Of a DNA stretch of 34,586 nucleotides, positions 9,134 through 11,928 are shown in pieces. This stretch comes from Flaviaestuariibacter sp. (GTDB lineage: Bacteria; Bacteroidota; Bacteroidia; Chitinophagales; Chitinophagaceae), in assembly GCA_028288515.1 (NCBI GenBank), contig JAQBNP010000149.1, forward strand, positions 1 through 34,586, read 5' to 3'. Position 1 is the first letter of the stretch; every line of letters starts with the position of its first letter. The notes beneath the pieces are model-generated. The model was not told where the DNA came from. It saw only the letters and a list, made by a program, of their open reading frames with translations, and searched no databases. A program made the translations under genes and the position numbers.

Positions 9134-10252
9134 TCACAGGCGCTTTAAAAAAAAGTCCTTATTGAAGCGAAGAAAAACAGAGTACCCATATTCCAGAAAC
9201 CGGTTCTTCAGATCGTAATAAGGCTCGAGCCGCATATCGATGGCCACGTTCGGGAACAGCTGCTTGTCATAGATCAGCGTGGCGAACAAAAGCTCCCGGT
9301 CGGGCTCGCCATACCCGGCGATCTTTTCTGAAATAGAATTGTACAAAGGCATGCCGACCGGGCCGAAGAACCGGTGACCGCGCCAGTACCGAAGATCAAG
9401 GTCAATGTTAATGCGGCTTCGGAATGTGATGCTCGACAGCCAGCCCGTCCCGTGGTTATAGAGCTGGAGCTTGTTGCCCGAAATATTGCGGTAGTAAACA
9501 AAGTGATGGTCGGTATTGATGCCGCGCAGAAAGCCACCGTCCGTGCTCGCTTTCAGCGAGAGACCGATGGCCGTGTTGAAGAGGGATTCGATCGGGTCAG
9601 GGGAGCTCGAGATCTGTCCGCCCTTGTGCGCGATGAGCATCTGCGCAGGCAGTTCGAGGGTCACGCGCGGGCCTTTGATCAGCCGCGTTCTCGTGGAGAA
9701 ACCAGTTGTCAGCTCTTCGCGAAAGGGGTCGTTCAGGATGATCGACTTTCGCCAGTCGATGAACCAGTCCATCCAGAATCGACGCTTATCCAGCGTCAGT
9801 TGCAGGCCCTGCTCGTTCCGGCTTGTGATGATGCGCTCGGGGTTATAAAGCGGCTCTATGAAGCGGTGATTCAGTGCACCCTGCAGGGTTCCCATGAGAA
9901 AGGTCAGTCCCTTCTTTTGATATTTGGCCGTGAACACCGGCTCGACCGTCACAAGACCGGGCCGGCCGAATTCACGACGAAGAAAAATACCGCCGCGAAA
10001 GGAGATGCGCTCGTTCAGCTGGTAGTTCAGCTGGGGTACAAGCTGGTAGCCGAGAAGCGTATAGCTGAGCGGAATATTGCCGAACCACTCATAGTTGCGG
10101 AGATAGTTCAGATTTTCGATGGTGAGGCTCAAACGCCCGGAATCGGCGGGCTGCAGGTTCGCCGTATCGCGGAAGAGGGGGTAATCGGTTTGCGCCCCGG
10201 CAGGGAGGCGCACCAAACAGGCAAGCACAGCAAGCACCGTCAATTTTCTCAT
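9134..10252 (-). CDS. Putative outer membrane beta-barrel/exported protein of unknown function
   Basis: 372 aa, signal peptide (MRKLTVLAVLACLVRLPAGAQ), alternating amphipathic strands with aromatic girdles, C-terminal FLRFNKDFFLKRL. Confidence 0.65.
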   Translation of the reverse strand: MRKLTVLAVLACLVRLPAGAQTDYPLFRDTANLQPADSGRLSLTIENLNYLRNYEWFGNIPLSYTLLGYQLVPQLNYQLNERISFRGGIFLRREFGRPGLVTVEPVFTAKYQKKGLTFLMGTLQGALNHRFIEPLYNPERIITSRNEQGLQLTLDKRRFWMDWFIDWRKSIILNDPFREELTTGFSTRTRLIKGPRVTLELPAQMLIAHKGGQISSSPDPIESLFNTAIGLSLKASTDGGFLRGINTDHHFVYYRNISGNKLQLYNHGTGWLSSITFRSRINIDLDLRYWRGHRFFGPVGMPLYNSISEKIAGYGEPDRELLFATLIYDKQLFPNVAIDMRLEPYYDLKNRFLEYGYSVFLRFNKDFFLKRL

Positions 10253-10427
10253 AAGATCAGCACGTTTCGTTTAAGGGGAGAAAGGTAGAAAAGAAAGGCG
10301 TATGAAAAGACAGGCCCACAAAGGGCCGTGTACCCCGCTGTCATTTTGAAGTGCCGAACTGCTGAATCGGCAGTTGAATCTTCGCGAACCGGCATGGTTT
10401 TTCCCCTTTTTCGATCAAACAATTGTT

Positions 10428-10637
10428 ATGGCAAACAAACAAACTCCGCAAACCGATAACGGTCGTAACCAGAACCGCGGCAGCAGCGGCAACAACAATC
10501 AGAAAGGTGGCAATGGAAATAGCCGCCAGACGGAAGGCATCGTACAGCCGGCCGGCAACCAGTCGGAAAGCAGCAAAGGGGGCGCAGGAAACTCCCGCCA
10601 GGGCAACACCGGTGGCGCTGCCAGGAGCGGACGCTAG
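10428..10637 (+). CDS. Small disordered N/G/S/Q-rich hydrophilic protein (69 aa)
   Basis: MANKQTPQTDNGRNQNRGSSGNNNQKGGNGNSRQTEGIVQPAGNQSESSKGGAGNSRQGNTGGAARSGR; no aromatic, Cys or Leu residues. Start chosen at internal ATG 10428. Confidence 0.6.
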   Translation: MANKQTPQTDNGRNQNRGSSGNNNQKGGNGNSRQTEGIVQPAGNQSESSKGGAGNSRQGNTGGAARSGR

Positions 10638-10700
10638 GCCCGTTTCCATCCGTACCAGCATCGATCTTCACCCCATTCAATCATCAGAAAATTGTGAGTT

Positions 10701-10955
10701 ATGGAAAATTCGAAGGGACAAAACAAGTCAGGACAGCAGGATCCGAATACAGACCTGCAGCGTGAGCGCTTATCCAATGGCGACAACCTTGGCGGCCAGC
10801 AAAACACCGGCAGCGGTATGCGCAACACATCCGGTGGCACAACCGACGTGGGTCGTAACACGCAGGGTGGCGCAGGTGGCCGCAGCAGCTCCGGCATCTC
10901 CACGAAACGCAGTGTGAGCGGCTCCGATTTCGACGGACAGGTATCACCGGAATAA
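10701..10955 (+). CDS. Small disordered G/S/N/Q-rich hydrophilic protein (84 aa)
   Basis: MENSKGQNKSGQQDPNTDLQRERLSNGDNLGGQQNTGSGMRNTSGGTTDVGRNTQGGAGG...; followed by its own terminator. Confidence 0.6.
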   Translation: MENSKGQNKSGQQDPNTDLQRERLSNGDNLGGQQNTGSGMRNTSGGTTDVGRNTQGGAGGRSSSGISTKRSVSGSDFDGQVSPE

Positions 10956-10967
10956 GAGGTCAGGGTG

Positions 10968-11010
10968 AGTCCTTGCACGCGTGGCAGAGCTGCGTGTGCA
11001 AGGACTTTTT
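10968..11010 (+). terminator. Rho-independent terminator
   Basis: AGTCCTTGCAC ... GTGCAAGGACT perfect 11-bp stem followed by TTTTT. Confidence 0.8.
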
Positions 11011-11170
11011 GTGCCAGTCGGTCCTGTTGACTTCCTTCCTCAAACGAAAGATCGGTTGAGCTTGGCTCAGTCCAGGCCCGCCTTTCACGGCTTTCAGCCG
11101 GGGCCGGGGCACGAGTTTTTTACTGTCCTCGGTACTCTTAACAATTCTTCCTTATTTAAAACAATCTGTT

Positions 11171-11605
11171 ATGGACAATCAAAGAAACCAGCAGGATCAG
11201 GGCCGGACATCAAACCAGGACTCGCAGAACCAGCAGGGCCTTGGCGGCCAAAGCCAGCAGACAAGCGGCGGCATGGACAGCGGAAATGAGCGTGGCATGG
11301 GCAACCAATCAGAAGGCGGCATGGGCGGCTCACAATCGGGCATGGGCGGCTCCGGTATGGACCAGGGCGGCTCCCAGCGCGGATCCGAAGGACTCGGCGG
11401 ACAGAGCCAGGGAACGAGTGGCTCACAGGGCGGCTCTCAGTCCGGAATGGGCGGCCAGTCCGGCATGGGCGGCGAAAGCGGTCGCTCTTCTGGCTCCGAC
11501 TACGGCTCTTCTTCAGGTGGCACTGATCTTAACAGCGGCGACTCGGGCCGGGGCGGCAGCAGCCAGTCCGGTGGTGAATCCGGCCGCGGAGAGGGCGACA
11601 TGTAA
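11171..11605 (+). CDS. Small disordered G/S/Q/M-rich repeat protein (144 aa)
   Basis: MDNQRNQQDQGRTSNQDSQNQQGLGGQSQQTSGG...GGSQSGMGGSGMDQGGSQRGSEGLGGQSQ...SGMGGQSGMGGESGR; repeated (Q)SGMGG units; own terminator downstream. Confidence 0.65.
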   Translation: MDNQRNQQDQGRTSNQDSQNQQGLGGQSQQTSGGMDSGNERGMGNQSEGGMGGSQSGMGGSGMDQGGSQRGSEGLGGQSQGTSGSQGGSQSGMGGQSGMGGESGRSSGSDYGSSSGGTDLNSGDSGRGGSSQSGGESGRGEGDM

Positions 11606-11640
11606 GCAGCCCCATTGCTTGTTATAGCGAATGAATGAAG

Positions 11641-11671
11641 GCGCCCCGTATAAATACGGGGCGCTCTTTTT
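11641..11671 (+). terminator. Rho-independent terminator
   Basis: GCGCCCCGTA-taaa-TACGGGGCGC then CTTTTTG: perfect 10-bp stem. Confidence 0.9.
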
Positions 11672-11730
11672 GTCGGCTCTGTATTTGCATCGTTTCGATC
11701 AATAACGGGTAACCTCAAAAATGAATTGCG

Positions 11731-11928
11731 ATGAAAGATGAAAAGAACGACAGGCCTCTCGCCTACCCCAAGCCAACAGAAACGGACAGCCAGATGAAAG
11801 AGCAGGGCGAATACCTGCAGGGCGACAGCAGCCGCCTGACGGAACAGCAGGGAGGCAACGACGCGCGCCAGGACATCCAGCAGATGAAGGATGCCAACGA
11901 ACAGAATACGACGGAAGGGATCCCGTGA
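11731..11928 (+). CDS. Small hydrophilic charged/Gln-rich protein (65 aa)
   Basis: MKDEKNDRPLAYPKPTETDSQMKEQGEYLQGDSSRLTEQQGGNDARQDIQQMKDANEQNTTEGIP; polar throughout, no hydrophobic core. Confidence 0.6.
   Translation: MKDEKNDRPLAYPKPTETDSQMKEQGEYLQGDSSRLTEQQGGNDARQDIQQMKDANEQNTTEGIP

Follow-up and report, generated by a model that had tools for sequence, protein, structure and literature searches.

The locus examined here raises a simple question: are four short, low-complexity reading frames that follow one another on the same strand real genes, and if so, in what circumstances would a cell make their products? The window, by which we mean the whole 34,586-nt stretch of Flaviaestuariibacter DNA that was analysed, carries the four ORFs on its plus strand at the positions and with the lengths given in an initial annotation made from the letters alone. 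Gene A (10428-10637) encodes a basic, G/N/Q/S-rich protein of 69 aa; gene B (10701-10955) encodes 84 aa with a conserved C-terminal TKRxVTGSDxDGQ; gene C (11171-11605) encodes 144 aa with 33% Gly (32.6%) and (Q)SGMGG repeats; and gene D (11731-11928) encodes an acidic protein of 65 aa with a conserved N-terminal RPxxYPKPTETDSQ...QxEY. We consider it fairly probable that A-D are undescribed hydrophilin-type protectants belonging to a general-stress regulon, which is possibly driven by sigma-54 or by a second RpoN.

Conservation and coding status

Of the 18 other genomes of the genus that were searched, all have gene D and 14 have B (E ≤ 1), and C adjoins D in 17 (profile search of excised loci). 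Many loci of the genus also have in common the flanking genes for OsmC, an LpxZ-like protein, an acyl-CoA ligase, a TPR protein and a protein that we take, from reading its sequence, to be SerC-like. The neighbour at 9134-10252 on the minus strand matches the NCBIfam LpxZ model at 184 bits, well below the 460-bit cut-off. Between the window and its closest relative, pN/pS is 0.19 for A, 0.26 for B, 0.28 for C and 0.16 for D, compared with 0.15 for the neighbouring OsmC gene, and it rises to about 0.6 in more distant pairs; these values are rough because synonymous sites are near saturation. D is the most conserved of the four. Frame conservation and substitution ratios, which the initial annotation had proposed as the means to judge the ORFs, both speak for coding, with frames kept across the genus and pN/pS well below 1. 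A-D are genuine genes under purifying selection.

Composition of the four proteins

The near-absence of hydrophobic and aromatic residues that was first noticed in these proteins holds up when counted: V, I, L, F, W, Y and C together make up 2.9% of the residues of A, 9.5% of B, 2.8% of C and 10.8% of D. All four proteins are predicted to be unfolded by the charge-hydropathy rule, in agreement with the disorder expected of them. Hydrophilins are defined by a glycine content above 6% and a hydrophilicity index above 1 (PMC7448490), and we took the latter as a Kyte-Doolittle mean below -1. The means of the window proteins lie beyond this limit in every case (A -1.71, B -1.36, C -1.39, D -1.74). 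Glycine amounts to 21.7% in A, 20.2% in B, 32.6% in C and 7.7% in D, and it exceeds 6% in every orthologue of B and C and in the family that occupies the A slot. The window D narrowly qualifies, as one of 3 of 19 D sequences above the limit, with the other 16 below it. A, B, C and their orthologues are thus hydrophilins by composition; D is as hydrophilic as the other three, yet most of its orthologues fall below the glycine limit.

Separate families with no support for a common ancestor

Profile searches place the four proteins outside the curated families. No Pfam or NCBIfam family matches the window proteins at E ≤ 1, no Pfam family, LEA and KGG (PF10685) included, matches any of the 54 aligned B, C and D proteins at 0.01, no PHROGs family matches the window proteins at 0.1, and no solved structure matches the profiles of B and D. 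The window A represents a separate family found in five close genomes (the window and orthologues in four). Eight other species have in this slot a different small basic protein, recognised by QNRYGxGRxxSGSDG..NH (for example at L057:5901-6083, L059:10979-11167 and L062:8880-9068, among others). Orphan paralogues of B occur elsewhere in some genomes. C retains the conserved segments GLGGQSQGTSG and SGDSGRGG.

The four genes had been ascribed to repeated duplication and diversification, and a shared N-terminus, MxNxQxxQxD, had been noted. In profile-profile comparison B shows no kinship with C, with D or with the A-slot family, nor does C with D, so descent of these families from one ancestor by repeated duplication is unsupported, and the N-terminal resemblance is a likeness of composition.

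Terminators and transcription units

A Rho-independent terminator follows B at 10960-11012 on the plus strand (-32.8 kcal/mol, z -6.7, then a T run), and a terminator-like hairpin lies between C and D at 11640-11665 on the same strand (z -5.0 when folded over 11634-11676). Across 15 genomes, the latter shows compensatory changes on both sides in 7 of its 11 pairs, and 91.8% of the cells are paired, as against 25-50% when the structure is slid along the alignment. The two terminators reported at 10968 and 11641 are both real. The four largely independent units that had been proposed are not supported: A and B are 63 nt apart with neither a terminator nor a promoter-like element between them and are probably co-transcribed as one unit, and D has no such element of its own. 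Expression of D may depend on transcripts that read through the C-D hairpin, or on another promoter.

An upstream element shared with stress genes

The promoter-like element is GGCATGGTTTTT at 10391-10402 (plus strand), 37 nt before the ATG of A, and GGCACGAGTTTTTT at 11108-11121 (plus strand), 63 nt before the ATG of C. Since it is found upstream of both, A-B and C appear to form two units with a common type of promoter. In the form GGCA[CT]-N2-5-TTTT, the element precedes 11 of 13 A-slot genes, 16 of 18 C orthologues, where it is nearly always at -58 to -65, 6 of 17 B genes and 0 of 19 D genes. Shuffled upstream regions would yield 0.16 occurrences for A and 0.34 for C, and the background is 4%. 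Orthologues are not independent, and binomial tests on such counts consequently overstate significance.

We observed the same element upstream of recognised stress genes. In its looser form, GGCAY-N2-5-TTT, which precedes 5.8% of 1128 background genes, it stands upstream of 21 of 25 KGG (YciG-like) genes in the genus, 13 of 19 DUF892 genes and 12 of 16 CsbD genes, the last nearly always 37-41 nt before the ATG. The window's own genome has a KGG gene with the element at -71, a CsbD gene with GGCACAGTTATTTC at -36 and a DUF892 gene with GGCACG shortly ahead of its likely start. Exact matches to GGCAYARTTTTTT in four genomes lie at KGG genes, a DUF892 gene, two BON-domain genes and small hydrophilic genes, among others. 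In one genome (G016; element-bearing loci L189:13877-17245, L200:11997-13517, L212:5201-5419 and L214:18223-19008) the element is also found ahead of what we take, from reading the sequences, to be a trehalose synthase-like gene and genes for an HtrA-like protease, a further small disordered protein and a TerB-like protein. OsmC was considered as a further member of the regulon and rejected, the element being absent before OsmC in 9 genomes. Over 800 kb of one genome, the enrichment of the element before genes is weak (12 occurrences, where scrambled cores give 1-10), and it is the sets of orthologues that carry the case. It is well supported that A(-B) and C share this element with the KGG, DUF892 and CsbD stress genes, and A(-B) and C would be transcribed from promoters of which the element forms part.

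A possible role for sigma-54 and a second RpoN

What might read such an element? Sigma-54 promoters have GGCAY as their -24 half, and this sequence is present at 10391, at 11108 and across the orthologues. We lean slightly towards recognition by sigma-54, in which case the element would be a sigma-54 promoter with an altered -12 half. TGGCAY is an exact match to the -24 half; where the element lies 32-34 nt from the ATG of an A gene, the distance leaves room for a -24/-12 promoter followed by a leader and hardly for a -35/-10 promoter; and GG-N10-GC is found in a few sites of the genus (for example at KGG loci L231 and L233) and ahead of the DUF892 gene of a genome with a single rpoN. To the alternative that the element is the site of some other regulator, or a variant promoter of the sigma-70 class, serving the same stress regulon, with the rpoN2 locus as a coincidence, we give somewhat less than an even chance. 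It draws on the -12 half: in both window elements, which also lack the T before GG, the GC expected ten bases after GG is missing, and among the stress-gene sites of the genus GC stands there in 3 of 49, most having TT or TC at positions 13-14. The gap from GGCAY to the T run is moreover not constant, and the element precedes a D-like gene in a single-rpoN genome, which also rules out that RpoN2 is strictly needed for it.

Outside the genus, G occupies position 13 in 8 of 15 GGCAY sites of DUF892 genes, as against 3 of 49 stress-gene sites within it; these sites were chosen by hand, and the comparison of genomes with and without the second rpoN gives a trend in the -12 half and no clean switch. 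At five KGG loci (L225, L226, L237, L241 and L242) the element takes the variant form GGCAY-N2-TTTTGTTG(C), in which a TTGC-like block falls two bases past the sigma-54 spacing.

All 41 genomes searched have rpoN, and two copies occur in 16 of the 19 genomes of the genus, the window's own (G000) included; the three with one copy are 62-85% complete. The second copy forms its own clade and has the same RpoN box as the first, ARRTVAKYRE, with a helix-turn-helix that reads STVSRITCNKY as against STVSRVANSKF in the other copy. It lies at L127:6339-9436 in the window's own genome (and at L129, L131, L133, L135, L137, L144, L145 and L139), downstream of YtxH and holin-like genes, and is followed by a response-regulator activator of the NtrC type with Sigma54_activat and HTH_8 domains and then by a PAS histidine kinase. 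In 14 genomes this second rpoN has a DUF892 gene within 8-12 kb. A second rpoN with activator and PAS kinase is also seen in at least two other genera (G020, and G033 by count), and in one genome of another genus that carries a second copy, DUF1328 and holin-like genes at the rpoN2 locus have the element upstream. Counted over whole genomes, 61 in all, the loose element GGCAYANNNTTTTT shows no excess that follows rpoN2.

The second RpoN, together with the adjoining activator and kinase, may read the element, a proposal that we advance tentatively and hold to be rather less probable than recognition by sigma-54 as such. Somewhat more doubtful still is the full model, in which a divergent RpoN2 with its own activator and kinase, and with -12 recognition changed from GC to TT, would act as the general-stress sigma factor with A-D as its dedicated, undescribed effectors. 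Paralogous sigma-54 factors are known to differ in their promoters, at -11 for RpoN1 and RpoN2 of Rhodobacter sphaeroides and at -12 in Bradyrhizobium japonicum (PMC3162934). The situation here is similar in combining a second rpoN with a promoter variant in the -12 half, but those paralogues serve other functions, and the link to stress genes here comes from sequence only. In enterobacteria, the general-stress regulon of RpoS (sigma-S) takes in yciGFE and ytjA (PMC5437024). The same kinds of genes (KGG, DUF892 and DUF1328) come under one regulatory element here, although the element differs and its regulator is a candidate.

Protectants, adaptors or condensates

Because A-D lie behind the same element as known stress-protection genes, they are probably protectants made under stress. 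The initial annotation had likened them to hydrophilins and suggested a general-stress role, and this idea gains independent support from the hydrophilin composition of A, B and C together with the element that A and C share with KGG, DUF892 and CsbD genes; it fits D less well, given the glycine content of most D orthologues. A-D would then be four small, probably cytoplasmic, intrinsically disordered proteins that accumulate in stress and shield other proteins or retain cytoplasmic water.

Similar proteins are known from other bacteria. YciG, a protein with KGG repeats, is an RpoS-dependent hydrophilin in Salmonella (PMC5437024). Like the hydrophilins of this kind in Salmonella and E. coli, A-D are small, Gly-rich, very hydrophilic and disordered, and A and C stand behind the element that also precedes the KGG genes of the genus. 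They differ in having no sequence relation to KGG or another Pfam family, in the low glycine (mostly below 6%) of the D orthologues and in being known here from sequence alone. DtpA and DtpB of Acinetobacter baumannii are described, in a paper that cites Green et al. 2022, as disordered hydrophilins in a conserved stress gene cluster with katE (PMC13232832). A-D resemble them in kind, as clustered disordered hydrophilins, and differ in that a desiccation role was shown there and is inferred for A-D. A limited literature search found no direct precedent for hydrophilins or stress sigma factors in Bacteroidetes.

The conserved short motifs suggest that B and D may in addition bind partners. Both diverge freely outside their invariant motifs (GSDxDGQ in B, YPxP...D...Q.E in D), and the divergent D-like genes seen in seven further genera of the family keep the motif YPxP...D.Q...Q.EF[IL] alone. 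These observations favour the alternative that A-D are disordered adaptors or scaffolds and not bulk protectants, in which the C-terminus of B and the N-terminus of D bind a specific partner, such as a ribosome, protease or nucleoid factor, when the cell is under stress. We nevertheless regard this as rather unlikely, as A and C are compositional and not motif-like over most of their length, and the neighbouring genes, which differ outside the genus, suggest no partner. Less likely by a wide step is that C forms condensates through phase separation of its Q/G/S/N repeats in stress. Its composition is prion-like, with Q, S and N beside the abundant Gly, but the usual sticker residues in phase separation are aromatic residues and Arg, and C lacks them, being almost free of aromatics (one Tyr) and poor in Arg. 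Finally, the possibility that A-D are non-coding low-complexity DNA with ORFs open by chance, which their low complexity and lack of a database family might invite, is negligible in view of the conserved frames, the pN/pS well below 1, the genus-wide motifs and the gene-like hairpins and upstream elements.

Under the reading that we prefer, of hydrophilin-type protectants in a general-stress regulon, four anonymous low-complexity ORFs become defined conserved families that are linked to recognised stress genes by a shared upstream element. The second RpoN with its adjoining activator and kinase is a concrete candidate for running the general stress response in these bacteria. If the sigma-54 reading is true, this would be a natural case in which a paralogous sigma factor with changed -12 recognition has taken over a stress regulon.
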